64,000 nucleotides of DNA from Streptomyces sp. TS71-3. Its GTDB lineage: Bacteria > Actinomycetota > Actinomycetes > Streptomycetales > Streptomycetaceae. A program made the position numbers and the translations under genes. The notes under the pieces are model-generated. The model did not search any database and had not been told where the DNA came from. It saw only the letters and a list, made by a program, of their open reading frames with translations. Every line of letters starts with the position of its first letter. Position 1 is the stretch's first letter. The DNA lies in contig NZ_BNEL01000001.1 in the NCBI RefSeq assembly GCF_018327685.1, positions 248,001 through 312,000 of the forward strand, in the 5' to 3' direction. Positions 1 to 18,112 of this stretch are shown one piece after another.

Positions 1-987
1 CTCGCCGCGCCGCAGGCCGCGGAAGGCGATCAGGTGCCACATGGCGTACAGCCGGTCCGTGGCGACGAAGTCGAGGAAGGCACCGGTCTGTTCCGGCGTC
101 CAGACCATGACGGGCGAGGGCTTTTCTCCAGTCTGCTGCCACCGGGCGACCCGCTCGCCCGTCCACACCAGGGCCTTCGGTTTGCGGACCGGGTCGATCT
201 CGACGTGGGCCGCCGGGTTGAAGGTGATGATCTGCTGGCCGATCGCGTCGTTCAGGGCGGCGCGGAGTGTGGCCTTGATGTGCTGGCGCGTGGACGGGCC
301 GGTGACGCGGCGGAAGGGCGGCATTGCGTCGAGCGCGGCCTTCATGGCCTTGCGGCGGGCCCGGTTCTCCGCGCCCTTCCACGGCACGGTTGCCAACTCC
401 TGGACCGCCGCACGTCGCTGGGCGTTCTGCTCCAGGATCTCGGCATTGGCGTCGGTGATGGCGGTGAACATCTCACTGAGGTGGCTCACGCGGAGCCGGT
501 CGAGGCGCCGGTCGCCGATGTGGGGCTTGAGGTGCACGCGGACGTCGGTCTCGTAGCGGCTGATGCCCGACTTGCGGATGCGCTTGCCCGCAAGCCAGCG
601 ATCCAGCCACTCGGACACGGTGAGGCTGCCGACGAGGTCCTGACCGGCCTTCAGCCGCCGCCGGGTCTCCTCCACGTCCGGCAGCGGCAGCTTCTCGCCG
701 CTCACCTCGGCCAGCATCTCCGCGATCAGCTGGACGCCTTCGGAGTCGTCGGACTCGGCGAGCCCCATGAGGGCACGTACGTGGTCCAGACCGGCCTGGG
801 CGGCCTTGAGACTGCTGTACCCGCCACGGGCGAACGACCGACGGCTGCCGTCTTCGCGGGGCGGCAGCTCCTGGCGTATGGAGTAGGTGCAGTGGTTCCT
901 GCTGTTGCGTTTGGGACAGGAGGAGCCGAGTTCCCTGCCGGTCTTCGGGTCACGGCAGGAGCAGCGGCGGTAGGTGGAGCCCTTCAA
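1..987 (-). CDS. int: Tyrosine site-specific integrase, C-terminus cut by window edge
   Basis: Integrates and excises the element at the tRNA gene. The 329 visible residues are an open frame from a TTG start behind GGAGG. The protein begins MKGSTYRRCSCRDPKTG, an N-terminus typical of Streptomyces element integrases, with Cys residues in the first 30 positions. A SAM-like core-binding region follows. The last visible residues read WHLIAFRGLRRGE, which is box I with the first catalytic Arg. The HxxR and Tyr motifs lie beyond the edge. Its start overlaps the stop of the upstream XRE gene by four bases (TTGA), so the two are translationally coupled. The only uncertainty is the unseen C-terminus. 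Confidence 0.93.
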   Translation of the reverse strand, partial: MKGSTYRRCSCRDPKTGRELGSSCPKRNSRNHCTYSIRQELPPREDGSRRSFARGGYSSLKAAQAGLDHVRALMGLAESDDSEGVQLIAEMLAEVSGEKLPLPDVEETRRRLKAGQDLVGSLTVSEWLDRWLAGKRIRKSGISRYETDVRVHLKPHIGDRRLDRLRVSHLSEMFTAITDANAEILEQNAQRRAAVQELATVPWKGAENRARRKAMKAALDAMPPFRRVTGPSTRQHIKATLRAALNDAIGQQIITFNPAAHVEIDPVRKPKALVWTGERVARWQQTGEKPSPVMVWTPEQTGAFLDFVATDRLYAMWHLIAFRGLRRGE

Positions 988-2223: not shown

Positions 2224-3526
2224 GTGCAACATACGGGAGCCGAATCCTGTCCCGATACCGGCAAGCACACCTGGCCGCCGGTCGCAGTCCCCGGCCAGCC
2301 CGGCCGCCACACCGGCGAAGTCATCATGCCCGCTGGCGAAGGGGCGCCTGACGCAGCTACGGCGGATCGGTCCGCTGAGGATGCATCGCCGGAGCCGGAG
2401 CCGGAGCCGGAGCCGACCGCCGGGTCATCGTTGCTGGACGAACTGCGCGCGCAGATAGCGAAGTTCGTGATTCTTCCCTCAGCAGAGGCCCTGGACGCCG
2501 TCACGCTGTGGGTGGCGGCGACACATCTGCAGCCCGCCTGGCAGCACGCACCCCGCCTCGCCGTGGTCGGGCCGGCGAAGCGGTGCGGCAAGTCGCGGCT
2601 GCTGGACGTGCTGACCGAGACGGTCCACGAGCCGATGCTCACCATCAACACCACACCGGCGGCGGTCTTCCGCTCGATCACCGCGGAGCCGCCCACTCTG
2701 CTGGTGGACGAGGCAGACACCATCTTCGGCACGCCGAAGCAGGCGGAGAAGAACGAGGAGATGCGCGGCCTGCTCAACGCAGGGCACCAGCGCAACCGCT
2801 ACGTCACGAGGGTCGTCGGCAACGACCACACCCCGCACCGGTTCGCCGCCTTCGCCATGGCGGCCCTGGCTGGGATCGGTGAGCTGCCCGACACGATCAT
2901 GGACCGATCGGTGGTGATCCGCATGCGCCGTCGCGCGGAGGGGGAGTACGTCAAGCCCTTCCGCTCTCGCCGCGACATCCCAGGGCTCCATGCCCTGCGC
3001 GATCGCATCGCCGCCTGGGCCCGGCCGCTGCTCGACGAGGCGGCGGATCTGGAGCCGGAGATGCCGGTGGAGGACCGGGCCGCCGACACCTGGGAGCCCC
3101 CTGGTCATCGTTGCCGACCTCGCCGCCGGATCCTGGCCCCGTCGCGCCCGCGAGGCGTGTGCGCGGATGGTGTCTGCGGAGATCGAGGCCGAGGAGGACC
3201 AGCCCGGCGAGGCCCGGATTCTCGCCGACATCCGCAGGGTCTTCGTCGCCCAGCGCGAGGTCGACAGCCTCTCCACGGATGAACTGCTGCACCATCTCCG
3301 GCAGAACGCCGAGAACCCGTGGGCGGAATGGGGACGCAACGGCCTGACCGCCCGCGACCTCGCGGCGATGCTGCGCCGATACGACATCAAGCCCGGCAAC
3401 GTCCGACTCACCGATGGAACCCAGCGCAAGGGCTACATGCGCAACAAGTTCCTCGACCCGTGGCGGCGCTACTGCCCCACCGTCCACGCGGTGGACGTCG
3501 AGCCCGCCGCCCCCACCTTGGGCTGA
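2224..3526 (+). pseudogene. DUF3631 P-loop protein, frameshifted in a C5 run
   Basis: Proteins with DUF3631 are common in Streptomyces integrative elements, usually between the regulator and mobilization genes; they have a helicase/ATPase-like core and unknown role. GTG 2224 follows GAGGAG by seven bases. The first frame has a Walker A-like GPAKRCGKSRLL, a Walker B-like TLLVDEADTIFG, and the start of the family hallmark ADTWEP. It then goes out of frame at the C run 3097-3101. One C fewer gives ADTWEPLVIVADLAAGSWP, and the rest reads open to TGA 3526. This is either a true +1 frameshift or a sequencing error. Corrected length is about 433 residues. Confidence 0.8.
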
Positions 3527-3894: not shown

Positions 3895-4746
3895 TTGCCC
3901 CACCTCTCCACGCCCACCTACCGGGACCGCCGCCCGGACGAAGGACGACCCAGGACGACCAAGCAGGCTGCTGAGCGGTACGCGCTCATCGCGGCGGGCG
4001 CTGTCATCGTCGGCCTCACCATCGGCGCGTTCTGGCTGTCCTATGCGCATCTTGCGGAGGTCGCCGGACAGCACGGACTCCACGGCTCTCCCACCCGACG
4101 CTGGGCCTGGCCTGCGACCCTGGACGCGTTCATCGTCGCAGGCGAACTTCTCATGCTCCGCGCGGGCCTGCGCCAGGTGACCGACGGGTGGGCGGTCGCC
4201 CTCACGGCCACCGGGTCGGTCGGTTCCATCGCGCTCAACGTGGCCGGGGTCAGCGGCGCAGGTGGTGCCGGAATCGTGCCGCTGCTCGACTACGTCGTCG
4301 CTGCTGTCCCGCCGACCGCCGCGCTGCTGGCCTTCGGTGTCCTGATGCGGCAGATCCACCAGCTCGTCGACCAACCAGCGGGCCATCCGGGCACCGATTC
4401 CGTCCAGGTAACGGAACCACCGGTCACCGCGCTCGCCGAGCCACCGGCTGAGCTCGTCCAGCCCACTGAGCCTCCGGCCGCCCACCCCCTCCAGGTGCCG
4501 GAACCACCTCTTGAGGTTGCGGAGAGCACGCGGCGCGGTGGCCGTCCGCCGAAAGCCACGGTCGAGGAGCTTGTCGAGATCGGCCGGATCACCCTCGCTG
4601 AGCACGGCACGCTCACCAGGTCCCTGCTCCGGAAGGCCGTCAAGGACAGGAACTTGACGATCGGCAGTGACCGGCTGACCGAGGTCATGAAGATCCTCCA
4701 GCCCGAAATCGAAGCCGCCGCCATGAGCGGTCCGGACAGCAGCTGA
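3895..4746 (+). CDS. DUF2637 membrane protein (Spd-like spread protein candidate)
   Basis: A 283-residue protein with four hydrophobic segments in its first half: about residues 25-53 (IAAGAVIVGLTIGAFWLSYA), 65-87, 95-115 and 120-145. This is the DUF2637 fold found next to plasmid transfer and spread genes in Streptomyces. A Pro/Glu-rich linker of repeated EPP units follows (about 155-205), then a C-terminal helical region beginning GGRPPKATVEEL that resembles a small DNA-binding or partner-binding domain. TTG 3895 was chosen because AGGAG lies eight bases upstream. It precedes the mob genes. A role in membrane steps of transfer is inferred from context only. Confidence 0.75.
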   Translation: MPHLSTPTYRDRRPDEGRPRTTKQAAERYALIAAGAVIVGLTIGAFWLSYAHLAEVAGQHGLHGSPTRRWAWPATLDAFIVAGELLMLRAGLRQVTDGWAVALTATGSVGSIALNVAGVSGAGGAGIVPLLDYVVAAVPPTAALLAFGVLMRQIHQLVDQPAGHPGTDSVQVTEPPVTALAEPPAELVQPTEPPAAHPLQVPEPPLEVAESTRRGGRPPKATVEELVEIGRITLAEHGTLTRSLLRKAVKDRNLTIGSDRLTEVMKILQPEIEAAAMSGPDSS

Positions 4747-4875: not shown

Positions 4876-5607
4876 GTGACGCACCACCCACCCCGCCCCG
4901 ACCACACTCCCGACGAGCCGCTGTCGCTGACGAAGTCCCCTACGCTGCCGAGACGCCTGCGGCAGGCGTTCGGACGGGTGACCCCTGGCGGAGCCAGTAG
5001 TACCCCGAGTCCGACTGAAGGCCGGTCTTCGGGGGTCTCCGCCCCGGGGGTGGCGGAGACGGCCCGGCGCCAGGGGGTGCCGGGCAGGGAGGTCGGAGCC
5101 GAGGGCGGCCCCGACCTGGACGAGCTCCACGCCGTCCAGCAGCAGATCCTCCACCCCGCACCCGCCACCGAGCCCCCGGCAGGCGAGCGAGTACAGAGCA
5201 TCCAGCCGGCGATTCGCCGTTTCACCGGCACCAAGCGCACCGTCCGTGTCGGCCCGCTGCGATTCACCGGCGACGAGCAAGCCGCCCTCCAGGAGGCTGC
5301 CGCCGAGCACGGCTACAAAGGGGAATCCGGCTTCGCCGCCGACATCGTCGTCGCCTTCATCACCGGCCGGTTCACTGCCAACCTGCCGCTGTCCGAGGAC
5401 CGCCGACGCACCCACATGTTCCGCGCCCAGGTGCTGCGCGAACTCAACCGCATCGGCGTAAACGTCAACCAGATCGCCCGAGCCCTCAACAGCGACCTCA
5501 CCCCACCCGACATTCGTCACCGTCTCGACCAGCTGCACCACCTGCTGGAACTGATAGCCGAGGCCCTACGCGAACCCGCCGACCCCAGGAAAGACCGGGC
5601 CGCGTGA
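4876..5607 (+). CDS. MobC-like relaxosome accessory protein
   Basis: A 243-residue protein. The first 110 residues are Pro/Gly-rich and probably disordered. The conserved part (about 118-235) has the ribbon-helix-helix-like start TVRVGPLRFTGDEQAALQ, then LRELNRIGVNVNQIARALN, the signature of MobC/bacterial mobilization proteins. Such proteins bind oriT and help the relaxase load. GTG 4876 follows GGAGAA. Its stop overlaps the relaxase GTG by four bases (GTGA), so the pair is coupled. Confidence 0.85.
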   Translation: MTHHPPRPDHTPDEPLSLTKSPTLPRRLRQAFGRVTPGGASSTPSPTEGRSSGVSAPGVAETARRQGVPGREVGAEGGPDLDELHAVQQQILHPAPATEPPAGERVQSIQPAIRRFTGTKRTVRVGPLRFTGDEQAALQEAAAEHGYKGESGFAADIVVAFITGRFTANLPLSEDRRRTHMFRAQVLRELNRIGVNVNQIARALNSDLTPPDIRHRLDQLHHLLELIAEALREPADPRKDRAA

Positions 5608-7316
5608 TAGCCGCCATCAAACCGGCCGGAGCCAACACCCGCGGCCTACTCGCCTACCTCTACGGTCCCGGCCGTCACGACGAACACCTCGACCCGCACA
5701 TCGTCACGGGCTTCGTCATGCTCGGCATGCCCGACCCCGGCCGGAACCCCGACGCCACCCTCACCCAGCTCGCCCGCCACCTCGACGAGCCCGTACGGCT
5801 CCGCAACAGTGAGTTCGGAAAGAAGGTCACCGACCACGTCTGGCACTGCCCTGTCCGTGCAGCCCCCGAAGACCGTCACCTCTCCGACGCCGAGTGGGCC
5901 GACATCGCCCAGCGGATCGTCGAAGCCGCGGGCATCGCCCCGCCTGGCGATGACCTCGGCTGCCGGTGGATCGCCGTACGCCATGCCGACGACGACATCC
6001 ACATCCTTGCCACCACCGTCCGCGAAGACGGCCGTCGGCCCAAGCTCCACAACAGCGGCATCCGCGTAGGCGACGCCTGCCGCCAGATCGAGACCGACTA
6101 CGGCCTACGCCAACTGAAGAAGGGCGACCGCACCGCCGGACGCCGCCCCACCCAGGCCGAGATGCACAAGGCCGAACGCCTCGGCTGGGAGCAGACGAGC
6201 CGCGACTGGCTCCAGGACCGCATCCGTGCCGCCATCCCCCACGCCGGCAACACCGAGGAACTCCTCGCCTACCTCGAAGCCGACGGCATCGCGGTCAAAC
6301 CCCGCCGCGGACCCTCCGGAGACCTCCTCGGCTATGCCGCCGGCCGCCCCGGCGACCTCAACAAGGACGGCCAACAGATCTTCCACCCCGGCGGAAAGAT
6401 CGCTCCCGACCTCACCCTCCCCAAGCTCAAGGCCCGCCTGGACAGCACCGCGCCGGAGGAACACCCCACCGCCCGCCGAGAGCGGCCCACCACTCCCTGG
6501 CACCAGGCCACCGACGCCCTCGACACCTTCCACACCGGCATGGCCGACGAGACCCACGCCCAGGCCCACATCGTGGCGCTCGGCGAACTCATCGAGGCCA
6601 CCGCCCAGAAAGCCCCCGACCACCTCCGCGCCGACGTACATGCCGCCTCTCAGGTATTCGCCCGCGCCCGGCGCTCCCGGATCCGGGCCGAGAACCAGGC
6701 CGCCCGCACCCTGCGCCACGCCGCCCGCGACATCGCTCACACCGCCACCGGCCCCGACGGCAGCGCCTTGGCCGCCCTGCTTGCCGCCCTCGTCTGGGCC
6801 ACGATCGTCGCCGCCCGCTGGCGCGAGACGAGGAGCCACGTCCACCAGGCCGAAGCCGCCCGCAGGACCCTCCACCACCTCCAGAACGCCGCCGATCAGG
6901 CCCTCACGCCCGTCCTCGACAATCTCACCACCCGCCAGCCCACCGCACAGGCGCGGCGGACTCTCGCTCATGACGTACGCGCCGCCGTCCCCGACCACGC
7001 CGACCGCATCCTCACCGACCCCGCCTGGCCAGCCCTCGCCACCGTCCTTGCCGACGCCGAAGCCGGCGGCCACAAACCCCACCAACTCCTCAAGGAAGCC
7101 GCCGCCCAACGCGAACTCACGACCGCCCGCCGGCCCGCCCGTGTCCTGATCACCCGCATCCAGCACACCAGCCGCGACCCCGCACCAAACCCGCGCGCCG
7201 AAGCGGCCCGCAGGACCACGACAATGCGAGTGTCCACGACTGGCCCGAAGGCCGACGAGACTCAGCCCGCACCACCCGCGTTCCTCGCGGAACCGAAGCA
7301 CCGTCCGCGTGTGTGA
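5604..7316 (+). CDS. Relaxase/mobilization nuclease
   Basis: Nicks and carries the transferred DNA strand. The 570-residue protein begins MIAAIKPAGANTRGLLAYL, with motif regions at about 60-80 (DHVWHCPVRAAPEDRHLSDA) and the metal-binding His motif at about 126-137 (VRHADDDIHILATTV). The latter has HxDxxxH and a Leu where many relaxases carry a third His, as is common in the actinobacterial MobA-type family. The C-terminal half is Ala/Arg-rich and helical with one hydrophobic stretch near 390-405 (ALAALLAALVWATIVAARW). It overlaps mobC by four bases. It is the key mobilization gene of the element. Confidence 0.88.
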   Translation: MIAAIKPAGANTRGLLAYLYGPGRHDEHLDPHIVTGFVMLGMPDPGRNPDATLTQLARHLDEPVRLRNSEFGKKVTDHVWHCPVRAAPEDRHLSDAEWADIAQRIVEAAGIAPPGDDLGCRWIAVRHADDDIHILATTVREDGRRPKLHNSGIRVGDACRQIETDYGLRQLKKGDRTAGRRPTQAEMHKAERLGWEQTSRDWLQDRIRAAIPHAGNTEELLAYLEADGIAVKPRRGPSGDLLGYAAGRPGDLNKDGQQIFHPGGKIAPDLTLPKLKARLDSTAPEEHPTARRERPTTPWHQATDALDTFHTGMADETHAQAHIVALGELIEATAQKAPDHLRADVHAASQVFARARRSRIRAENQAARTLRHAARDIAHTATGPDGSALAALLAALVWATIVAARWRETRSHVHQAEAARRTLHHLQNAADQALTPVLDNLTTRQPTAQARRTLAHDVRAAVPDHADRILTDPAWPALATVLADAEAGGHKPHQLLKEAAAQRELTTARRPARVLITRIQHTSRDPAPNPRAEAARRTTTMRVSTTGPKADETQPAPPAFLAEPKHRPRV

Positions 7317-8061: not shown

Positions 8062-8475
8062 TCACACGGACAAGGCCCCGTCGAGGTACTCCTGTACCGG
8101 TTCGAACAGCCCGTAGGGCACATACTCCGGGATGTCTCCATGGGTGACCCAGGCAAGTTCGGCCAGCTCCTCGGTGTCTGCGACGTGAGCTGTGCCGCCC
8201 AGGATCTGGCAGGCGGTGTACGACATGAGGCGGCCCGTCTTCGGGTGAACGCGTTCGCCGAGCAGCTTGACCGCGGCCACGGTCAGCCCTGTCTCCTCCT
8301 GGGTCTCCCGTACGGCGGCGTCCTCGCGTTCCTCGCCGGGCTCGACCTCGCCGGCAGGGAACTGCCAGGAGAGCTGTCCCTCGCTCACGCGGCGGCGGAC
8401 CATGAGCACACGGCCTTCGTGCACGACGATGGCGGCGGCGATGCCCGGCCGCTCGTCCGCGTTCTGCTGCGTCAC
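8062..8475 (-). CDS. NUDIX hydrolase (second of pair)
   Basis: A 137-residue single-domain NUDIX protein. It has an intact NUDIX box, GEVEPGEEREDAAVRETQEE followed by TG, at about residues 43-65, preceded by the strand SWQFPAG. It hydrolyses a nucleoside diphosphate linked to another group; the substrate is unknown. GTG 8475 follows GGAGGA, and its GTGA overlaps the stop of the upstream NUDIX gene, so the two are coupled. It is the last gene of the minus-strand cargo set. Confidence 0.88.
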   Translation of the reverse strand: MTQQNADERPGIAAAIVVHEGRVLMVRRRVSEGQLSWQFPAGEVEPGEEREDAAVRETQEETGLTVAAVKLLGERVHPKTGRLMSYTACQILGGTAHVADTEELAELAWVTHGDIPEYVPYGLFEPVQEYLDGALSV

Positions 8476-9023
8476 GTCTGCTCCTCCAGGACGGCCAGGA
8501 CGGGTGGGAAGATCGTATCGACGGAGATGAAGCGGGACACCGCGTTTCTGGGGACCCACATCACGTCGATGTTCTCGGCGGCGTCCCTGTTGGTGGCTTC
8601 GCCGGCCAGGTACTCGCAGAGGAAGTACTCGCACAGGACGCCGGTCGCGGGGTGCAGGCGGTTCCCAAGGTGCTTCCGTGCCGCGCAGTGGACTCCGGTC
8701 TCGTCCAACGTCTCGCGCACCGTGGTGGTCTCTGCCCTGCCTCCTGGCTTGATGACCCCTGCCGGGAACTGCCAGGTGATCCCCGCGGCGTCGCTGTCCC
8801 GTCGGCAGACCAGGAGGACCTCGCTGTCGCGGACGACCACCGCGATGGCCACACGCAGAGCCTGCGCACCGGGTGGAATCGGGTCTGGCGGCGCCTGCTC
8901 CTTCGCCAGCAGGAGCGCGAAGCGCTGACGCGCAGCGGGCGGGGCCTGCTCGTGCGCAGTGTCGAGTAGTTGCTGCATCTCCCGGCGAGGCATGACAGAC
9001 GCGTCGGCGTGCCAGGCCGCCAC
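8472..9023 (-). CDS. NUDIX hydrolase with partial N-terminal HTH
   Basis: A 183-residue NUDIX protein. The box is GVIKPGGRAETTTVRETLDE then TG, so one of the usual paired Glu residues is Asp. The N-terminal 40 residues are helical (RREMQQLLDTAHEQAPP). The frame stays open upstream to about 9120 and encodes HTH-like RLGNEQFAAHLGIAVRTVAAW, a segment normally part of such proteins, but no ATG, GTG or TTG is available there. Either GTG 9023 is used, or the HTH belonged to a longer gene that lost its start through a small indel. It is coupled to the NUDIX gene downstream. Confidence 0.75.
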   Translation of the reverse strand: MAAWHADASVMPRREMQQLLDTAHEQAPPAARQRFALLLAKEQAPPDPIPPGAQALRVAIAVVVRDSEVLLVCRRDSDAAGITWQFPAGVIKPGGRAETTTVRETLDETGVHCAARKHLGNRLHPATGVLCEYFLCEYLAGEATNRDAAENIDVMWVPRNAVSRFISVDTIFPPVLAVLEEQT

Positions 9024-9203
9024 CGTCCTGACGGCGATGCCCAGGTGAGCGGCGAACTGTTCGTTGCCGAGTCGCAGGGCGGACTGCAGCAGGCACGCGC
9101 AGCCGGCCGATCCCGTCCCCGCTCAAAGACGGGACAGCCGCCCTCGGCGGTAGCAGATCACTGGAGGCGGCCCGTTGCGAGGACGGGCCGCCACGGCTCT
9201 AGG

Positions 9204-10268
9204 TGTTCTGTCCACGGAGGTTGGTGACGGACGCCACGGCTGAGCGATCTTGAAATAGGTGAGGGCCTTCTGGCTCGGTGTGGATTGCGACATCTGCACC
9301 GGCGACCAGAAAGGCCCTCGTGCCCCACCGTAATGCACCCCTGACCGAGACAGGACGACTGCGGCTGGCCCGCTGCGTCGTGGAAGACAACTGGCCCCTG
9401 CGCCGGGCCGCGGAACGCTTCCAGGTCTCGCCGACAACGGCACAGCGGTGGGCCGACCGCTACCGCAGGCTCGGCGAGGCGGGCATGACCGACCGCTCCA
9501 GCCGCCCGCACGCCAGCCCACGCCAGACGTCGACACGTACCGAGCGGCGGATCATCAAGGTGCGCGTACTGCGCCGCTGGGGCCCCGCACGGATCGCGAG
9601 CCTTCTGCGGCTGGCGCCCTCCACCGTGCACCGGGTACTCACCCGCTACGGCCTGGCCCGCCTCACGCATCTGGACCGGGCCACCGGCCGCGTCATACGC
9701 CGCTACGAACGCGCCAGGCCCGGCGAGCTCGTCCACGTCGACATCAAGAAGCTCGGCAATATCCCCGACGGTGGCGGCCACAAGATCCTTGGCCGCCAAG
9801 CGGGCCGCAAGACCCGCTCCGGCGCCGGCTACAGCTACCTGCACACCGCCGTCGACGACCACTCCCGCCTGGCCTACAGCGAGATTTTCACCGACGAGAA
9901 GAAAGAGACCGCCGTCGCCTTCTGGATCCGGGCGCAGGCGTTCTTCGCCTCGTGCGGGATCACCGTCGAGCGCGTGCTGACCGACAACGGCTCCTGCTAC
10001 AAGTCCCGTCTGTGGCGCGATGCCCTGGCGGCGGCCGGGATCACCCACAAGCGAACCCGGCCCTACCGACCCCAGACGAACGGCAAGGTCGAACGCTTCA
10101 ACCGCACCCTGCTCGATGAGTGGGCCTACGCCCGCCCTTACCGCTCAGAGCAGGAACGACGCGACGCCTTCCCTGACTGGCTGCACACCTACAATCACCA
10201 CCGCGGACACACCGCGCTGAAAGGCCAACCACCCGCCAGCCGCGTCCCCAACCTCACAGGGCAATACA
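9204..10268 (+). mobile_element. IS481-type insertion sequence, complete, 1065 bp
   Basis: The left end TGTTCTGTCCACGGAGGTTG and the complement of the right end, TGTATTGCCCTGTGAGGTTG, are imperfect terminal inverted repeats starting TGT. The element is flanked by a perfect 6-bp direct repeat TCTAGG (9198-9203 and 10269-10274), matching the NCTAGN target preference of the IS481 family. It carries one transposase gene. Removing it and one repeat copy joins the HAD gene to the NUDIX pair with a gap of roughly 150 bp, so it has split a same-strand gene set without hitting a reading frame. Confidence 0.92.
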
Positions 10269-10273
10269 TCTAG
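9320..10273 (+). CDS. IS481-family transposase
   Basis: A DDE transposase of 317 residues. GTG 9320 gives the family-typical start (PHRNAPLTETGRLRLARCVV). Two HTH segments follow (RAAERFQVSPTTAQRWADRY and RIASLLRLAPSTVHRVLTRY), then an rve-type catalytic core with HVDIKKLG, YLHTAVDDHSRLAYSEI, VLTDNGSCYKS and a final Glu in NGKVERFNRTLLDEW. The stop codon TAG (10271-10273) lies outside the inverted repeat, in the target-site duplication, so the insertion site itself supplies the stop. Confidence 0.92.
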   Translation: MPHRNAPLTETGRLRLARCVVEDNWPLRRAAERFQVSPTTAQRWADRYRRLGEAGMTDRSSRPHASPRQTSTRTERRIIKVRVLRRWGPARIASLLRLAPSTVHRVLTRYGLARLTHLDRATGRVIRRYERARPGELVHVDIKKLGNIPDGGGHKILGRQAGRKTRSGAGYSYLHTAVDDHSRLAYSEIFTDEKKETAVAFWIRAQAFFASCGITVERVLTDNGSCYKSRLWRDALAAAGITHKRTRPYRPQTNGKVERFNRTLLDEWAYARPYRSEQERRDAFPDWLHTYNHHRGHTALKGQPPASRVPNLTGQYI

Positions 10274-10291
10274 GCCGGGGGCAAGAACCCG

Positions 10292-10849
10292 CTATGCGGC
10301 AGTTGCCCGGGACGCCACACGGCCCAGGCCCACAGCCCAAAGCACCAATGTCAGCAGGTGCTCGGGAAGCAGACCGGTACGAGGCTCGGGCTGTACGAGC
10401 AGCGTGGGATTGCCCGTAGATGTCCGTCGGGCGGCCCAGTCGTGATCGAGGGCGGTGAAGTCGTCGTCGATCCAGACGACCGGGGCGTTGCCGAGCCAGG
10501 TGTCGACGGAGTCCCGCTTCCACAGGTAGCCGTCGGGGTGGCTGGTGGTGATGTTCGGGCGGGGTAGGTCGACGAAGGGCAGCGACGGAAGGCCGAGGAG
10601 CGGCCCGATGAGGGTGGTGGCGTCCTGGCGCCAGCTGGTGCACCAGACCGGGGTGACCAGGCCGGACCGGATCACGTCCATGAGCATGGGGCCGTGGACT
10701 GGGTTGAGCCAGACCGTGACCGGGTCGTCGGCCGTACGCCCGGCAGGGACGACGTCATGGCGAATGTGTGTCGCCGGGGTCGTCCCGTCGGCGGCGGGGA
10801 AGGGGATGAGGACGCCATCGATGTCGAGGAGCAAGTAGGGAGCGCGCAT
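10292..10849 (-). CDS. HAD-fold phosphatase of the RNA-repair-associated (SAK) type
   Basis: A 185-residue HAD protein. Motif I is LLLDIDGVLIPF (residues 6-17). A Ser/Thr step (VWCTSWR) follows, and the acidic motif IV is VVWIDDDFTALDHDW. The pattern resembles the 'HAD domain in Swiss Army Knife RNA repair proteins' family rather than metabolic HAD enzymes. ATG follows GGAGGA by four bases. It is preceded by the methyltransferase gene (47-bp gap) and was once followed by the NUDIX pair. Substrate unknown; a nucleotide or RNA 5'/3' phosphate is possible. Confidence 0.78.
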   Translation of the reverse strand: MRAPYLLLDIDGVLIPFPAADGTTPATHIRHDVVPAGRTADDPVTVWLNPVHGPMLMDVIRSGLVTPVWCTSWRQDATTLIGPLLGLPSLPFVDLPRPNITTSHPDGYLWKRDSVDTWLGNAPVVWIDDDFTALDHDWAARRTSTGNPTLLVQPEPRTGLLPEHLLTLVLWAVGLGRVASRATAA

Positions 10850-10896
10850 CGGTTCCTCCGAGGAGGGGCTGGGAGCGTGCGGTGCCGGACTATGGT

Positions 10897-11589
10897 TCAG
10901 GCCCTGCGGGCGGTGATGAGAAGCGTGGTCGGCCACTGGCCGAGCCGGACGTCGTGGAACTCCTGGGCCGAGGCGAGTACGAGTCCCGCGTGGTTCAGAT
11001 GCTTCTCCCAGCGGTCTGCGTCGAAGTCCCAGCGGGCAATGGGCAGGCGGGTGAGGTCGGGGAGCATGACGTAGTCCCGCTGGGGCCGGTCGCTGACAGA
11101 AGGACGCATGCCACGACGTCGGGGGTGCGGCACGGAGAAGGCGAGTGAGCAGCCGGGTTTGAGGTGCTGGGTGATGGCCGGGAATAGAAGTTCGGGCGCC
11201 ACGAGGCCGACTGCGCCGAAGACCGAGTAGATCGCGTCGAACTGCTCGCCGGACGCCTGGAGGTAGTGCAGGGCGTGGCCAGTGGTGAAGGCGAGGTTGG
11301 GCAGGCGTCCGTAGTGTGAGCGGGCGCGGCGGATCTGGAGGCCGACCAGGTCGACGGCAGTGACCTGGGCGTCGTGGTGGGTGGCGAGGTGGGCTGCATT
11401 GTGGCCGGGGCCGCAGCCAAGTTCGAGTATGTGTTTGCCACGCAGGTCCGGGCCGAGGAGCTCGGCGCCGGGGCCGCTGCCTGGGCGGGTGGTCCACTCC
11501 ATACGGGCCGATGCGGCGAGCGGTTCGGCGCGGCCGGACGCGGTGCGCTGGCGGGCGTGGACGTGCCATGGGGAAGCCTGGGCGAGCAC
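10897..11589 (-). CDS. Class I SAM-dependent methyltransferase
   Basis: A 230-residue Rossmann-fold methyltransferase. SAM motif I is ILELGCGPGHNAAHLA (about residues 54-69), followed by VTAVDLVGLQIRRAR, FDAIYSVFGAVG and LKPGCSLAFSVPHP. The first 45 residues resemble N-termini of small-molecule methyltransferases. The GTG start abuts the stop of the kinase-like gene directly, so the two are co-translated. The acceptor substrate cannot be read from sequence. A product modified by both kinase and methyltransferase is a reasonable inference. Confidence 0.82.
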   Translation of the reverse strand: MLAQASPWHVHARQRTASGRAEPLAASARMEWTTRPGSGPGAELLGPDLRGKHILELGCGPGHNAAHLATHHDAQVTAVDLVGLQIRRARSHYGRLPNLAFTTGHALHYLQASGEQFDAIYSVFGAVGLVAPELLFPAITQHLKPGCSLAFSVPHPRRRGMRPSVSDRPQRDYVMLPDLTRLPIARWDFDADRWEKHLNHAGLVLASAQEFHDVRLGQWPTTLLITARRA

Positions 11590-12501
11590 CTAGACCTCCA
11601 GGAGCTGTAGGACATCGGTCAGGTGTCGGCGTACGACCTTGATGTACGCGGGGTCGGTGGCCGGGTCGTTGATCCAGCGGATGGACTGCTCCATGAACCA
11701 CTCCACCGCCCACATGCGGTGCCAGCCCAACGCCCACCGCTCGGCGGGCAGGCCGCCCCGCTGGGCAAGGACGCCGGCGCTCCCGCCCTCGACGACGTAC
11801 TGATCGAGGAAGGCCCTCAGACGTACCGGATCGGGGTCTTCGATGGTGCCGTGCCAGCTAGCGAGGTCGAGGAGGCCAGGGCCGGTGAAGGCGCGGGCGA
11901 AGTCCAGGAGTCGCCAGCCGCGCTCACCGATGTGAAGGCTGGTGGGGTGGAACTCGGAGTGCACCCAGCCGAACGGTTCCAGCGTGGCCTCTGTCGCGCG
12001 TGCTCCGGCCGCCTGAGCGATCCGGTCGAGGGCGTCCTCGACGTCGTCCGCGTCCTGCCACCGTTCTGCCTTGCGGAGCTGATCGAGGTGATCCAGGGCC
12101 CGGCTGGGCAAGGCCCGCAAGCCTCCTCGGTCGAGGACGGGCAGAGCGGCGGCCTGGCGCGTGCGGTGCAGGACCACAGCTGCGGCTGCGCCGTCGAGGT
12201 CGTCGGCCTCGCGGATGGGCGTGCCGAGGTCTTCGAGGAGCATCCCGAGCCAGCCGTCCAGGACCGCGGAAGCGTGCAGTTCCGGTACCGGGACGCCGAG
12301 CTTGTGCGCCAGCCTGAGCGCCTGGGCCTCACCGTCGAACGGCCTCTGCGCGTACTTGAAGATCGCGGTGGTGCCGTCGGGGAAAGTCAGACGCTCCACG
12401 CCGGACATGGACCACACGCGGACCGCCGCTCGTTCGGGCTGAGGCTGGTCGGTGAGGGTGAGCAGGCTGCCGAGGAGTTCGGCATTGAGCTTCGCGTCCA
12501 T
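11590..12501 (-). CDS. APH-fold kinase-like protein with HSE in place of HxD
   Basis: A 303-residue aminoglycoside-phosphotransferase/choline-kinase-like protein. The N-lobe has AIFKYAQRPFDGEAQAL (ATP-binding Lys and Glu), the hinge is GMLLEDLGTP, and the catalytic loop reads GWVHSEFHPTSLH, with LLDFARAF as the metal motif. Typical members carry HGDxHxxN; here the catalytic Asp is Glu and the Asn is Ser. Activity may therefore differ or be lost. It sits in the minus-strand set between the hypothetical gene and the methyltransferase. An antibiotic-resistance role should not be assumed. Confidence 0.78.
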   Translation of the reverse strand: MDAKLNAELLGSLLTLTDQPQPERAAVRVWSMSGVERLTFPDGTTAIFKYAQRPFDGEAQALRLAHKLGVPVPELHASAVLDGWLGMLLEDLGTPIREADDLDGAAAAVVLHRTRQAAALPVLDRGGLRALPSRALDHLDQLRKAERWQDADDVEDALDRIAQAAGARATEATLEPFGWVHSEFHPTSLHIGERGWRLLDFARAFTGPGLLDLASWHGTIEDPDPVRLRAFLDQYVVEGGSAGVLAQRGGLPAERWALGWHRMWAVEWFMEQSIRWINDPATDPAYIKVVRRHLTDVLQLLEV

Positions 12502-12577
12502 GGGGGCTCCGATGCGGTTGGTGGTGTCCGGGGCGGGCGAGAGTGAGCCGGCCCGCCCCGGAGCCGGTCGGTGAGGG

Positions 12578-13330
12578 TTACGCGGCGGAGCTGGTCACGC
12601 GGTGGGCGTAGACCTGCTCGATCCACCCGGCCTTGAACTGGGTGAGGTCGTCACGGAAATTGGCCATCGACGCACCGTAGGGCGCGACGACGCCACCGGA
12701 CTGGTCCGGTACGGACTGGCAGCCGTGCACGAGCCGCCCGCCGAGGGCGGCGTGGGCCTTGATGGACTCGATGCGGCGGTGCTCGTTGAACCAACCGCCG
12801 TGATACACCTCGTCCAGCAGGCCGCCCATCTCGTCGTCCAGGTCGAAGACAACGGAGGTGGCGGCCGGGAAGAACCAGCACGGGCCGACGTTCGAGATGT
12901 GCCCGTCCAACTCGACCTTGTTCAGGGCCATGAACGTGGCCGCCTCGCGCAGCATCCGCAGGTGGGCGGCGGTGATCTGCGGCAGGCCGAGTCCGGCGAG
13001 GTGCTCGTCGCGGAAGAGGTACGCGTACACCTCGTACGCGGTGGCCAGGACCCGAGTCGCATCCGATGTGGACTCGCCGTGCTCCTTGATGAAGCCGAGG
13101 GCGAGCTGCTCGACCGCGCTCTCGGTCGTCTCGTCCACGTCCAGGAGCTGCGACTTGACCAGCTCCCAGTCGGCGACGAGCCAGGTGTTGGAGCCGAAGC
13201 GGAAGAAGTACTCGGCCGGTTCGATGGTGATGCGCCGGCCCTCGACCTGGATGCCGGGCAGGCGGCTCCAGCGCTCGTCGAAGGCGCTCGGCAGCTCGAC
13301 CGTGATGGCCGTGGCGTCGATGATGGTCAA
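12578..13330 (-). CDS. Hypothetical protein, first gene of the minus-strand cargo set
   Basis: Family not recognised. The 250-residue protein begins TTG behind GGAGAC and reads MTIIDATAITVELPSAFDER. It is soluble and acidic, with no signal peptide or membrane segment. Residues 30-60 hold aromatic-rich IEPAEYFFRFGSNTWLVADW. A helical middle (about 75-150) and DLDDEMGGLLDEVYHGGWFN follow. It is divergent from the XRE-TPR regulator across a gap with a tandem operator-like repeat. Being first in the set and adjacent to the regulator, it may be the characteristic component of the cargo system, possibly a substrate-binding or scaffold protein. Confidence 0.65.
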   Translation of the reverse strand: MTIIDATAITVELPSAFDERWSRLPGIQVEGRRITIEPAEYFFRFGSNTWLVADWELVKSQLLDVDETTESAVEQLALGFIKEHGESTSDATRVLATAYEVYAYLFRDEHLAGLGLPQITAAHLRMLREAATFMALNKVELDGHISNVGPCWFFPAATSVVFDLDDEMGGLLDEVYHGGWFNEHRRIESIKAHAALGGRLVHGCQSVPDQSGGVVAPYGASMANFRDDLTQFKAGWIEQVYAHRVTSSAA

Positions 13331-13522
13331 CGGTGTCTCCGTCTCTGTTCGCCCGGGTTCGGGCACAGCAATGCCCGGACCCGGAGCAGGTGCACGGAAC
13401 TTGGGGAGCCGCCCGGCCAAGTGAGGAGCCTGGATCACGGTCGGAGTCTGGAACCGTTCCGGGCGGCTGCCATTAAGTGAACCGGCCGTCACGCACTGTG
13501 GGTACGGTGAAGGGCACGCCAA

Positions 13523-13540
13523 GCGGTATACGCGGTATAC
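13523..13540. promoter_or_regulatory. Tandem GCGGTATAC repeats, operator candidate
   Basis: Two exact, adjacent 9-bp copies of GCGGTATAC lie 22 bp before the GTG of the XRE-TPR regulator and about 190 bp before the divergent hypothetical gene. Each contains the palindrome GTATAC. The position suits autoregulation by the adjacent HTH protein. Confidence 0.55.
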
Positions 13541-13561
13541 AGCTCCGGAACGGAGGCGATC

Positions 13562-14917
13562 GTGGCAGCACTGAGGAAGCCCAACCCCCGCCTGCGCGAG
13601 ACCATCGACGCCGTCGGCTGCACGTATGAGGCCCTGGCCAAGGACGTACGCCGCATTGCCGCCGAGAACGGCGAGATGCTCCAGACCAACAAGGCGGCCA
13701 TCTCCCACTGGGCCAACGGTGTCCGGCGCCCCACCGGCCGGACCGGCCATTACCTCGCCGAAGCGCTCTCGCGCCGTGCGGGTCGCACCATCACGCAAAC
13801 CGAGATCGGCCTTCAGGAGACCGAGTCCGCAACCGCCGCCGAGTCGGACCCGGTGATCGCCGCCACCGACCTCGGCCGTGCAGACGTCGAACGCCGCCGC
13901 TTCCTGGCTGTCGCCGCCTTCTCCACCGCTGGCGTCGCCATGCCTCTTGCGTACGACCACGAGGCGACCGCCCGTGTGCTCCGCGCCCGCACCGGCCGTA
14001 CCCTGGTCGGCGCGGAGGACGTCGAGGTAGTACGCCAGATCACGGCGGCCTTCAGCGCAGCCGACGAACGCCTGGGTGGCGGCCACGGCCTGACCACCGT
14101 CACGGCCTATCTCGCCGATACCGCAGCCCCCATGCTCCGCGCCCGATTCGCCAGCGAAGCGTTACGCCGAGCAGCCTTCGGCGCGGTCGCCGAACTCGCC
14201 TACCTTGCAGGCTGGAAGCACCACGACCTTGGCCAAGAAGGCGCGGCCCAGCGTTACTATCAGGTCGGCTATCAACTCGCCTGCGAAGCTGACCCACGCG
14301 GCCACGCCGCTTGGATGATGCGGGCCCTGGCCCACCAGGCCCTCAGCCTCAAGCAGCCGCACCACTGCGTCGACCTCGCGGAGGCCGCGCTCGCCAGCGG
14401 GCTCGGTCACATCGACGGCCAGACCGAGGCCCTGCTCCACATCACCCACGCCCGCGCCTACGCCTCCATCGGCGAGAGGCCCTCCGCCGCCCGAGCCCTC
14501 CTGGCCGCCGAGGACGCCCTGCTGCGTGAGGATGGCCCGCAGCCCAGCTACTCCCGTGTGAGTGGCCCGGCCGCCGGCACCGTCGCCAGCCACACCGCTC
14601 GCACGCTGACTGACCTCGCCGACCACGTCGGCACCGAACAGCAGCACCGTGACGCGCTCACCCGCTGGGACCCCGAGAAGTACAAGCGCGTTCACGCCCT
14701 CACCTACGCCGATCTTGGTGACAGCCTCGCTGCCCAGGCCCGAGCCGACGAAGCCGTTGCCGCCTGGTCACAGGCCCTGACCCTGATGGAGGGCATGACC
14801 TCCGACCGCACCCGCAAGGCGATCACCTCACTCCGTTCCACCCTCGCTGTCTACCAGCGTCGCAAAGTGCCTGGAGCCGCCGAACTTGCCCGCCATGCAC
14901 GCGAAGCACTGGCCTAA
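13562..14917 (+). CDS. XRE-type regulator with TPR-like repeats
   Basis: A 451-residue regulator of a Streptomyces-typical class. The N-terminal HTH (about 1-70) contains YEALAKDVRRIAAENGEM and AAISHWANGVRRP. A linker with RRRFLAVAAFSTAGVAMPLA (about 112-131) looks like a pseudo-Tat segment but is characteristic of this family. The remaining 300 residues are TPR-like helical pairs (AAQRYYQVGYQLACEA, DEAVAAWSQALTLME). GTG follows GGAGG by five bases. It probably senses a signal through its TPR domain and controls the divergent cargo set and its own NUDIX partner. Confidence 0.85.
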   Translation: MAALRKPNPRLRETIDAVGCTYEALAKDVRRIAAENGEMLQTNKAAISHWANGVRRPTGRTGHYLAEALSRRAGRTITQTEIGLQETESATAAESDPVIAATDLGRADVERRRFLAVAAFSTAGVAMPLAYDHEATARVLRARTGRTLVGAEDVEVVRQITAAFSAADERLGGGHGLTTVTAYLADTAAPMLRARFASEALRRAAFGAVAELAYLAGWKHHDLGQEGAAQRYYQVGYQLACEADPRGHAAWMMRALAHQALSLKQPHHCVDLAEAALASGLGHIDGQTEALLHITHARAYASIGERPSAARALLAAEDALLREDGPQPSYSRVSGPAAGTVASHTARTLTDLADHVGTEQQHRDALTRWDPEKYKRVHALTYADLGDSLAAQARADEAVAAWSQALTLMEGMTSDRTRKAITSLRSTLAVYQRRKVPGAAELARHAREALA

Positions 14918-14952
14918 GCTGCCCACCAACCGGCCGATGAAGGGACGTAACC

Positions 14953-15453
14953 GTGGCTCCGCGGACAACCGATCACCAGCCCAAAGCCCTGCCGCCCGCC
15001 CTCGAATCCATGACCCTGCTGGTTGCCGCGGTCATCGTTCACGACACGGCCACCAACCGAGTCGTCCTCATCCAGCGCAGTCAGAACGCCAAGTTCGCCC
15101 AGGGCATGTGGGACCTCCCCGTTGGCAAGAGCGAACCTGGTGAGCCCATTACCGAGACCGCTGTTCGGGAGCTGCACGAGGAGACCGGTCTGACTGTGAA
15201 GGCCGAGTCCCTGAAGGTGGCCCACATCATCCACGGGGCATGGGGCGTTGAGGCTCCCAATGGCTTCCTCACTGTCGTCTTCGCCGCCCACGAGTGGACC
15301 GGCGAACCCGAGAACCGCGAACCACGCAAGCACGCCCAGGTCTGTTGGGTGGACGCCGATGTAATCCCTCATGCCTTCGTGGGCACCACCGCCAGCGCCT
15401 TGACGTGCTATCTCGAGGACGGTGCCCAGGTCTCCCTCGATGGATGGTCCTGA
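14953..15453 (+). CDS. NUDIX hydrolase following the XRE-TPR gene
   Basis: A 166-residue NUDIX protein with an intact box GKSEPGEPITETAVRELHEE then TG (about residues 57-79) and preceding MWDLPVG. GTG start behind AAGGGA, 35 bp after the regulator gene, so probably the same transcript. It is the third NUDIX enzyme in the cargo, which suggests handling or detoxification of nucleotide derivatives. Exact substrate unknown. Confidence 0.88.
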   Translation: MAPRTTDHQPKALPPALESMTLLVAAVIVHDTATNRVVLIQRSQNAKFAQGMWDLPVGKSEPGEPITETAVRELHEETGLTVKAESLKVAHIIHGAWGVEAPNGFLTVVFAAHEWTGEPENREPRKHAQVCWVDADVIPHAFVGTTASALTCYLEDGAQVSLDGWS

Positions 15454-15548: not shown

Positions 15549-16533
15549 TGAGGTTTTCTCAACGAAGATCATTTCAAGATTCCGTTGAGGACGAGTGCGG
15601 CACGGGCGATGTCGCCGATCCGGCTGGGACTGAGCGAGACCTTCTTGAGCGCGCGCCAGCGTTCCTTGAGTTCGGCGGCTGCGCGTTCGCCGAGGGCGCG
15701 CAGATCTCTGATCAGGGTGTTCGTGGTTCGGGTATCGGTGTGGAGGGCTTGCTCAGATCTACCCTGGGGGCGGCGCACCGGGATGTGGATGCCGATTCCG
15801 GCGCCGATGTAACCCTTGTCGGCAAGAGTCGGCAAACCGTCGGCGGCGGCCTTGTACAGAACGGGCAGGACGTGGATACGGGCCGCTGTGATGTCGGGGG
15901 TGGAGCCGGGCTCGACATCGGAGACCCACAGCGGGGTGCCGTTCGGGGAGGACAGGAACTGCACGTTGCCGCCGAACGCCTTGTGCTTCTGGCTGAACCA
16001 CAGGTCGTTGCCGTTGTCGCGGACGCCGGCGAGACGGTCGGACTCGATGAGTGTGCCGTCCAAAATCACGTGCGTCATTCCTTCCCGCCGGCAGCGGTTC
16101 AGGACGTCGTGCAAGTCGGGGGCTTGGGCGGCCAGCGCGTCGATGCCTTCGTGGAGGTAGCGGTAGCCGGTGGCCTGGGAGACCCCGGCGTCGCGGGCCA
16201 GACAGTGCACGCACGCCTGTTCGCGGAACCAGCGCAGCACCAGCACGGCCTGACGGAACGGACCCAGCGCCCGCGACCCCCGCGGAGTGCCCAGCCGTCG
16301 CCGGTGGGCGGCCAGCAGTCGTGAAAGGTGATCCACGACATGGCGCGGAACATCGAGCGTGGCAACATAGGTGACCAACGTGAAGCCTCTGGTGGGTCGG
16401 ACGAGTTCTTGTGGTGAGACCTGTCCTACCAGGGGCTTTACGTCTGCTCACGACCAGGATGAGTTCGTCCGATCCACCCCGAGGCGAGCGGTTCACAACG
16501 CTTCGCGAAGATCATTTCTCTGAGAAAACCTCA
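15549..16533 (-). mobile_element. IS5-type insertion sequence, about 985 bp
   Basis: TGAGGTTTTCTCA (15549-15561) is repeated in exact inverted form at 16521-16533, marking the ends of a unit that carries one transposase gene. No target duplication is evident; flanks are CAC and CTC. Upstream of the transposase, an imperfect 18-bp inverted repeat (about 16391-16408 and 16464-16481, GGTGGGTCGGACGA type) may be a regulatory hairpin of the IS. It lies about 300 bp inside the right end of the host element. Confidence 0.8.
15569..16378 (-). CDS. IS5-family DDE transposase
   Basis: A 269-residue transposase. An N-terminal HTH (CLARDAGVSQATGYRYLHEG, about 60-79) is followed by a DDE_Tnp_4-type core: THVILDGTLIESDR, NDLWFSQKHKAFGGNVQFL, TPLWVSDVEPGSTPDITAAR, and TLADKGYIGAGIGI, then a C-terminal Glu/Arg-rich helix (ERAAAELKERWRALKKV). 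Length fits a complete single-frame enzyme. It is the only gene of the element at 15549-16533. Confidence 0.9.
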   Translation of the reverse strand: MVTYVATLDVPRHVVDHLSRLLAAHRRRLGTPRGSRALGPFRQAVLVLRWFREQACVHCLARDAGVSQATGYRYLHEGIDALAAQAPDLHDVLNRCRREGMTHVILDGTLIESDRLAGVRDNGNDLWFSQKHKAFGGNVQFLSSPNGTPLWVSDVEPGSTPDITAARIHVLPVLYKAAADGLPTLADKGYIGAGIGIHIPVRRPQGRSEQALHTDTRTTNTLIRDLRALGERAAAELKERWRALKKVSLSPSRIGDIARAALVLNGILK

Positions 16534-16844: not shown

Positions 16845-16889
16845 CTCGTAATGCGTAGGTCTCGGGTTCGAATCCCGAAGGCGGCTCCA
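16845..16889 (+). other. Element right end: 3' fragment of tRNA-Thr(CGT)
   Basis: The fragment runs from the anticodon loop CTCGTAA through the variable region, the T arm (GGGTTCGAATCCC) and the acceptor strand AGGCGGCTCCA. The anticodon CGT reads ACG (Thr). The matching 5' half (GCCGCCT...) is absent, so this is the duplicated core left by integration and not a working tRNA. The functional tRNA should be at the other end of the element, left of the window. Confidence 0.85.
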
Positions 16890-17462: not shown

Positions 17463-17885
17463 TCAGGTGCCGGGGGCCTCGAAGGTCTCGATCGTGCAGC
17501 GTGCTGCCCCGCTGCGCTCGATCCTGGCGTCGCTGGTGATCAGCGGAACGCCGAAGCTCTCGGCGAGGGCCACGTAATGCGCGTCGTATACGGAGAGGTT
17601 GTTCGACAGCTCGCGTACTCGCTGCCACAGGACCAGCGTGGGGTGCAGGTCGAGAGCGAGCGCCTGGTAATCGGTGATTGCCTTGAGGGCCTGTCTTTCC
17701 GTGATCTTCGGCTTGCCCCCTCGCCGGCCGCGGGACAGCCCGAAGGCCGCTGAGGTGATCTCGTAGTCCAGCAGGCCCGGCGCTGCGAGAGTATCGGCGC
17801 GGCCCACACGCTCACGGATCGCGGTTCCCGTCTTGCCGTGGTCGAGGAGGAAGTGCACAAGGCTGGAGCAGTCAATGACGATCAA
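17463..17885 (-). CDS. vapC: VapC-type PIN-domain toxin
   Basis: A 140-residue PIN-domain ribonuclease toxin. The fold's acidic residues are present: Asp5 in MIVIDCSSLV, Glu42 in LLDYEITSAA, Asp in SVYDAHYVALAE (about 100) and Asp in LITSDARI (about 117). The TTG start overlaps the VapB stop by four bases (TTGA), the usual coupled antitoxin-toxin order. VapC toxins cleave tRNA or rRNA and are neutralised by VapB. It lies between two tRNA-Thr att fragments, so it probably came with a former mobile element and stabilises the segment. Confidence 0.9.
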   Translation of the reverse strand: MIVIDCSSLVHFLLDHGKTGTAIRERVGRADTLAAPGLLDYEITSAAFGLSRGRRGGKPKITERQALKAITDYQALALDLHPTLVLWQRVRELSNNLSVYDAHYVALAESFGVPLITSDARIERSGAARCTIETFEAPGT

Positions 17886-18112
17886 CGTCGGTCCCGCCCG
17901 TCCTCGATGGCGTCGAGGATGTCGGCTGTACCGAGCTCGGTGTGGGTTTCACGCTCCAGGCGTGTGGCCATCTCCGCGAGGGTCGGCTTGACGGCCTCCC
18001 GGGCGAGCAGTTCCAGGGCGTACGCCTGAAGCGACTTGCCCGCCTGCGCGGCGCGGACTTTGAGGGCGTTGAGCGTGTCGTCCGGGACATCCCGGATCGT
18101 GATCGCGGTCAT
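17882..18112 (-). CDS. vapB: VapB-type (FitA-like) antitoxin
   Basis: A 76-residue ribbon-helix-helix antitoxin. The N-terminal RHH reads MTAITIRDVPDDTLNALKVR then AAQAGKSLQAYALELLAR, and the C-terminal tail (LERETHTELGTADILDAIED) is the toxin-binding part. It is first in the operon, expected to repress its own promoter and to neutralise the VapC encoded four bases into its stop. Confidence 0.88.
   Translation of the reverse strand: MTAITIRDVPDDTLNALKVRAAQAGKSLQAYALELLAREAVKPTLAEMATRLERETHTELGTADILDAIEDGRDRR

Follow-up and report, generated by a model that had tools for sequence, protein, structure and literature searches.

Several actinomycete integrative and conjugative elements (AICEs) have in common a cluster with nud and xre genes, and Pif of pSAM2, a NUDIX protein, acts in the recipient and prevents redundant exchange (PMC3218068). 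A NUDIX gene and an XRE regulator also lie together on an integrative element of Streptomyces sp. TS71-3, in a stretch of 64,000 nucleotides of contig NZ_BNEL01000001.1 (positions 248,001 to 312,000), referred to here as the window; coordinates below count from its first base. In this locus the regulator gene (G) and the NUDIX gene (H) face an operon of four genes (D-C-B-A). No such operon is mentioned in the passage of PMC3218068 that deals with the mdp-nud-xre cluster and Pif, and the element here carries a MobA/VirD2-type relaxase; the likeness is one of description. Regulators of the same NCBIfam family as G (38-40% identity) are encoded on plasmids of S. venezuelae NRRL B-65442 (vnz_RS39065) and S. 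atratus NBC_00041. As in the locus described here, they have a divergent operon and an operator-like repeat shortly before the regulator gene, but their operon encodes acyl/aldolase chemistry, unlike A-D. A description of the TS71-3 gene set was not found in a literature search that covered titles and abstract openings, with subscription literature mostly outside it. We conclude that A-D, G and H, six genes and not eight, make up a real and conserved module that travels as a fixed unit on mobile elements between Streptomyces species. Quite possibly, though short of probably, D-C-B-A facing G-H would be a compact, horizontally moved operon that makes or modifies a small molecule.

The order D-C-B-A / G-H is complete in 77 of 80 named loci, which are the best 80 of 169 stretches encoding a relative of A and all belong to Streptomyces. 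Gene neighbours were mapped up to 10 kb on either side. This conserved order bears out the proposal, made in a preliminary description of the window, of an undescribed cargo module facing an XRE-TPR regulator across an operator. Two of the three incomplete loci are without H, at a contig end, and the third is without C and D. H stands behind G in 78 of the 80 loci; G is in pieces in seven and C in one. In a genus sample the order is complete in 18 of 20 loci, at least four genomes being common to the two sets; one exception holds A and C only, the other A-D together with a distant NsdA-family protein. Two A-bearing genomes, G011 (B apparently deleted) and G120 (fragments), were omitted from this count because their module copies are broken or fragmentary. 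Decayed copies with fragments of B, C, D and H were also observed (L188, L189 and L190, in genomes G072, G064 and G068).

A is present in 23 of 121 genus genomes; in a larger sample of the genus, 71 of 392 Streptomyces genomes have it. Most copies are 85-92% identical and their genomic positions are scattered. Co-occurrence was assessed over the 121 genomes by Fisher test, with relatedness ignored and thresholds differing from gene to gene. A and C are found together in 22 genomes (A only in 1, C only in 0), A and B in 21 (A only 2, B only 2), and A and G in 20 (A only 3, G only 4). For D, hand-filtered among the matches listed at at least 55% identity and at least 100 residues, the count is 22 together, A only 1 and D only 2. 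For these four pairings the p values range from 5e-16 to 3e-23. H is less tightly linked: of the 37 genomes that carry it, 21 also have A and 16 do not. HAD proteins of the wider family to which D belongs are widespread without the module, with relatives at E≤1e-10, among the matches listed, in 100 of the 121 genomes versus 23 with A. The preliminary description had held that independent occurrence of the genes, with no conserved neighbourhood, would speak against a system; such independence was not found for A, B, C and mostly G, was found in part for H and for the wider family of D, and was found for two further genes, E and F, discussed below. The median ratio of nonsynonymous to synonymous divergence (dN/dS; pairs with dS above 0.1 and unsaturated, 369-400 of 400 drawn per gene) is 0.14-0.29 across A-D, G and H, compared to 0.27 for the relaxase. 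The six module genes are under purifying selection.

The lowest dN/dS values are those of G and H (0.14-0.15), and these two genes stay adjacent, with an operator of the same kind, even where A-D are missing (genome G008). Together with the NUDIX nature of Pif and the nud/xre cluster of several AICEs, this is consistent with a role in element maintenance or conjugal immunity, in which H would act like Pif of pSAM2 against a second element, G would be its regulator and A-D would be ordinary cargo. Such a role leaves A-D unexplained, and the module, including H, is kept in loci in which no mobility gene was called. We regard this explanation as decidedly unlikely.

The preliminary description had treated six minus-strand genes as one system under the XRE-TPR/NUDIX pair. 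All of these open reading frames, and the facing pair, are present at the coordinates given, and the arrangement reported for them was reproduced: B and C abut, and the NUDIX genes E and F overlap by 4 bases. A-D are indeed conserved together, but E and F do not belong with them. Gene E (8472..9092, minus strand) encodes a HTH-NUDIX protein, its HTH part recognized by eye, and has lost its 5' end; gene F (8062..8475, minus strand) encodes its NUDIX partner. In the 100 other loci mapped (the overlapping sets of 20 and 80) the pair never adjoins the module. E occurs in 12 of the 121 genus genomes, its own included, and F is adjacent in 12 of 12. Both E and A are found in 4 genomes, A only in 19, E only in 8 and neither in 90 (p 0.24). 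E and F were rejected as module members since the pair does not lie beside the other module copies mapped and E shows no association with A; they are unrelated passengers, a separate tandem pair lying outside the module. The HTH-NUDIX/NUDIX tandem (window 8062-9092; L142-L153) is a unit that recurs independently. Between D and E lies an IS481-type insertion sequence (9199..10273; Pfam LZ_Tnp_IS481 and rve) with its transposase at 9278-10273 on the plus strand and imperfect terminal repeats near 9199 and 10273 (18 of 25 bases alike). The start region of E is lost near this insertion, the break being separated from the terminal repeat by about 90 bases of other sequence.

Gene A (12578..13330, minus strand) is the first gene of the operon and encodes a 250-residue protein of a new family. 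It has no family match in Pfam, NCBIfam or PADLOC, and its confident structure model (pLDDT 90.6) has no matching fold in the PDB, in agreement with the earlier statement that the first protein is of no recognized family. The GC content at third codon positions is highest in A (0.959), and its synonymous divergence is about half that of neighbouring genes (window and orthologues); this suggests that A is highly expressed. Gene B (11590..12501, minus strand) follows after 76 bases, and an APH/choline-kinase fold is predicted for its product, as in the aminoglycoside phosphotransferase/choline kinase family. The catalytic motif of that family is HxDxxxxN. At the corresponding position B has HSEFHPTS, the catalytic Asp and Asn being replaced in 47 of 47 aligned sequences. 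Within this atypical motif H181, S182, E183, H185, P186, T187 and S188 are invariant, and F184 is kept in at least 90% of the sequences. A drug-inactivation or self-resistance cassette, in which B and C would modify an antibiotic, could be suspected from this fold, since drug kinases are among the structural matches of B and C is a methyltransferase. However, the altered motif, the missing Pfam APH match of B and the absence of B from the smallest form of the module (A and C) make such a cassette very unlikely.

Gene C (10897..11589, minus strand), with no gap to B, encodes a class I S-adenosylmethionine-dependent methyltransferase (Pfam Methyltransf_25, E 2.2e-14). After a further 47 bases gene D (10292..10849, minus strand) encodes a SAK-type HAD protein (Pfam HAD_SAK_2, PF18143, 32.0 bits, cut-off 27.5). 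On the plus strand, G (13562..14917) encodes an NsdA-family HTH-TPR regulator that matches NCBIfam NF053720 over its full length (residues 10-444 of 451; 351.9 bits, cut-off 75), and H (14953..15453), 3' of G, encodes a NUDIX hydrolase (Pfam NUDIX, E 4.1e-20, 72.6 versus 21.1 bits).

From these families the preliminary description had leaned towards nucleotide or RNA chemistry or defence. In an anti-phage system of this kind D would heal RNA ends, C would methylate, B would phosphorylate RNA or nucleotides, and the NUDIX enzyme would clean up. D does exceed the HAD_SAK_2 cut-off, H is a NUDIX protein, and of five plasmid regions opened around distant C relatives (hand-chosen from 27 matching records), two have CRISPR genes nearby. 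Moreover, the module sits in a cargo slot of a mobile element, and such slots often hold defence genes. A search of PADLOC-DB at E≤0.01 returned, for the module, only the generic matches mad2 (methyltransferase part, C residues 49-166) and PDC-S07 (generic NUDIX); eight neighbouring or element proteins that were tried gave no match. No ligase or nuclease family was matched in the module in Pfam and NCBIfam scans, relatives of D are far more widespread than A, and D is absent from the A+C and A+B+C forms described below. The HAD family name is the only positive sign for such a function; the earlier lean thus finds little support, and we consider it unlikely.

The gap between A and G had been noted for tandem operator-like repeats. 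The repeat is exact, GCGGTATAC GCGGTATAC at 13523..13540 on the plus strand, and the tandem GCGGTATACGCGGTATAC stops 21 bases short of the start codon of G. GCGGTATAC was found in 97 of 99 A-G gaps (98 loci and the window) and GTATAC in all 99, the commonest second half being GCGGTTTAC. Allowing at most 3 mismatches, 2 sites were found in the window versus 0.09 expected by chance. The second site, at 44284 with 3 mismatches, lies outside the element, and no other copy was present at 2 or fewer mismatches. Because the one extra site lies outside the element, G probably controls the A/G promoter pair and not the transfer genes. Among 8 other gaps the operator-like repeat was present in 2, as GCGGTATATCGCGTATATACGG in front of the regulator on the plasmids of S. 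venezuelae (L140:1-7365) and S. atratus (L139), and it was near none of 4 further regulators (L184, L197, L198 and L199). It is therefore not common to all NsdA-family regulators.

The module had been described as cargo inside a mobilizable element, and this was confirmed. The element measures 17.6 kb and is flanked by a 43-bp direct repeat: attR (16845..16887) is a copy of the 3' end of tRNA-Thr(CGT), and attL, the 3' end of the tRNA-Thr(CGT) gene itself, begins about 0.8 kb left of the window. A tyrosine integrase gene (1..987, minus strand) continues left of the window to about -626, and the full protein of 537 residues matches Pfam PF00589 at 63.8 bits (cut-off 27.1). MobC (5050..5607, plus strand; PF05713, 35.7 bits, cut-off 23.2) is followed by a relaxase of MobA/VirD2 type (5604..7316, plus strand; PF03432, 37.2 bits, cut-off 24.6). 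The 17.6-kb region is an integrative mobilizable element. It also carries an XRE gene, a DUF3631 gene (3167..3526, plus strand; PF12307, 110.6 bits, the called frame covering only profile positions 85-182 of 182), a gene for a DUF2637 membrane protein (3895..4746, plus strand) and, between H and attR, a DDE transposase gene (15569..16378, minus strand). No candidate for a mating-pair apparatus was seen in the gene calls between the att sites, where not every open reading frame was scanned with profiles of the type IV secretion system or TraB/FtsK. Just outside attR (17463-18112), genes for a PIN-domain protein and a FitA-like ribbon-helix-helix protein overlap by 4 bases, as in toxin-antitoxin pairs of VapBC type.

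The slot behind the relaxase was compared among related elements. The query relaxase was taken from locus L074, an element of a sister subtype that carries the module; it is 49% identical to the relaxase of the window and was searched in the 121 genomes (11 candidates scored per genome). Relaxases at least 75% identical to it were found in 17 places, two pieces in G064 being counted once. In 12 of the 17 places D lies within 2.6 kb of the relaxase. In the remaining 5, other operons and no module stand beside it; one of these genomes, G090, has the module 1.3 Mb away. Three of the 5 (L197, L198 and L199) show the full integrase-XRE-xis-DUF3631-MobC-relaxase row by gene calls, with labels from cluster comparison, while in L200 the fetched stretch lacks an integrase and the integrase of L201 is of another kind. 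The cargo of L198 (8437-13885) is a lasso-peptide cluster with leader peptide, macrolactam cyclase and B2 protease above the NCBIfam cut-off and a PqqD-type protein by Pfam. It shares with the module the kind of mobilization block, the slot behind the relaxase and an NsdA-family protein on the opposite strand (called frame covering profile positions 106-432 only). The four lasso genes have no counterpart in the module: no lasso or other ribosomally made and modified peptide precursor or class-defining enzyme family was matched among A-D, G and H in Pfam and NCBIfam, peptides elsewhere not having been searched for. L200 (9586-15274) and L201 (2667-8891) carry an AAA-type kinase-like gene, glycosyltransferases and an XRE gene. 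The cargo of L197 (8183-12369) and L199 (979-5660) comprises a methyltransferase and an NsdA-family regulator; they face an operon that encodes a conserved 370-residue protein without a Pfam match and an ASCH-domain protein (verified for L197). In L199 other genes intervene, and about 5 kb separate this cargo from the relaxase. The module is best read as exchangeable cargo that integrative mobilizable elements carry in the slot behind their relaxase.

The module was also observed without mobility genes. In 39 of 99 loci (33 of 79 named loci, L110 left out) no integrase, relaxase, MobC, xis or DUF3631 gene was called, some stretches ending at contig ends. Stages from the full element to the bare module were seen at two chromosomal sites that recur, one beside ychF and one beside sodN (each identity checked on one gene). 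These sites account for 26 of the 79 named loci: relaxase and integrase are both present in 5, the relaxase alone in 1, the integrase alone in 6 and neither in 14. Since every locus was selected for having A, the loci indicate that the module can outlive the mobility genes and do not give the frequency of loss. The 14 loci without relaxase and integrase could suggest an addiction module, in which the operon is kept since its loss is harmful. Yet with this choice of loci a loss would be invisible, decayed copies exist in G064, G068 and G072, and no toxin or antitoxin family was matched in the module by the Pfam and NCBIfam scans. Of the explanations considered, we give this one the slimmest chance.

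The smallest form of the module seen is A+C. Two loci of the divergent clade of A, one of them on pMDJK44.1 of S. alboflavus, have A and C alone, with an NsdA-family regulator that faces A and an MFS gene convergent with C. A third locus (L042) has A and C without an MFS gene, so that MFS accompanies 2 of 3 A+C loci. In L042 (9526-15364) the neighbours of A and C are genes for an MvdD-type ATP-grasp protein, a PCMT protein and a short peptide, a graspetide-like setting (ATP-grasp and PCMT by profile). Another plasmid has A-B-C without D under a HTH-DUF5753 regulator. In 2 of the 5 opened plasmid regions with distant C relatives, an APH kinase, an ABC transporter and a methyltransferase stand in a row, the methyltransferase in one case being fused to a NUDIX domain. 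On pMDJK44.1 (L133:2003-6110) the row, a cousin arrangement, consists of APH kinase, ABC transporter and a methyltransferase-NUDIX fusion protein. Around G relatives, 5 plasmid regions were opened, hand-chosen from 92 matching records, and 3 of them have biosynthetic-type genes facing the regulator. Two are the same operon on the S. atratus and S. venezuelae plasmids (fumarylacetoacetate-hydrolase-like, aldolase, KASIII, ACP, CoA-lyase and MaoC genes), and the third has an epimerase gene. The minimal forms and the neighbourhoods of the C and G relatives favour a small-molecule pathway, without proving one. The alternative named in the preliminary description, modification of a small molecule, fits better than RNA chemistry, given the lasso-peptide and glycosyltransferase cargo in the slot, the biosynthetic genes facing G relatives and the MFS genes at A+C loci.

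In a small-molecule pathway of this kind, G would bind the tandem GCGGTWTAC site and keep both its own promoter and the divergent promoter of A repressed until a signal arrives. A, which has the strongest codon bias, would be the founding enzyme or a carrier, and C would methylate its product. B might phosphorylate, or only bind, an intermediate through its unusual active site, D would take phosphate off, and H would clear a pyrophosphate-linked by-product or inducer. Several observations weigh against such a pathway. The common form has neither a transporter nor a scaffold-building enzyme of known class, and there is little room for a precursor peptide between the module genes. Because A has no matching fold, its status as an enzyme would rest on conserved polar residues only, and B may not be a kinase since its catalytic Asp and Asn are replaced. 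Two of the 5 opened G-relative regions have no facing biosynthetic-type operon. The operator-like repeat, which as said is not general in the family, is missing at the nearest two of the G relatives opened (56% and 54% identity). The G-H pair of G008 stands without A-D, and H occurs alone in further genomes. Finally, the slot comparison comes from the sister subtype, with a relaxase about 49% identical and a query taken from a module-bearing element.

If the module makes a compound, the pathway would be short and repeatedly transferred; a laboratory host could express it, and the product could be found directly. It is a unit under selection whose head protein, A, has neither a family nor a matched fold. 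A bolder proposal, which we hold to be possible and rather doubtful, is that A and C define a new class of biosynthesis, leading to natural products or chemical signals, and that a family of Streptomyces integrative mobilizable elements shuttles entire miniature biosynthetic clusters in the slot behind the relaxase under NsdA-type regulators. The comparison of this slot offers a handle on how mobilizable elements of antibiotic producers may trade small regulated pathways.

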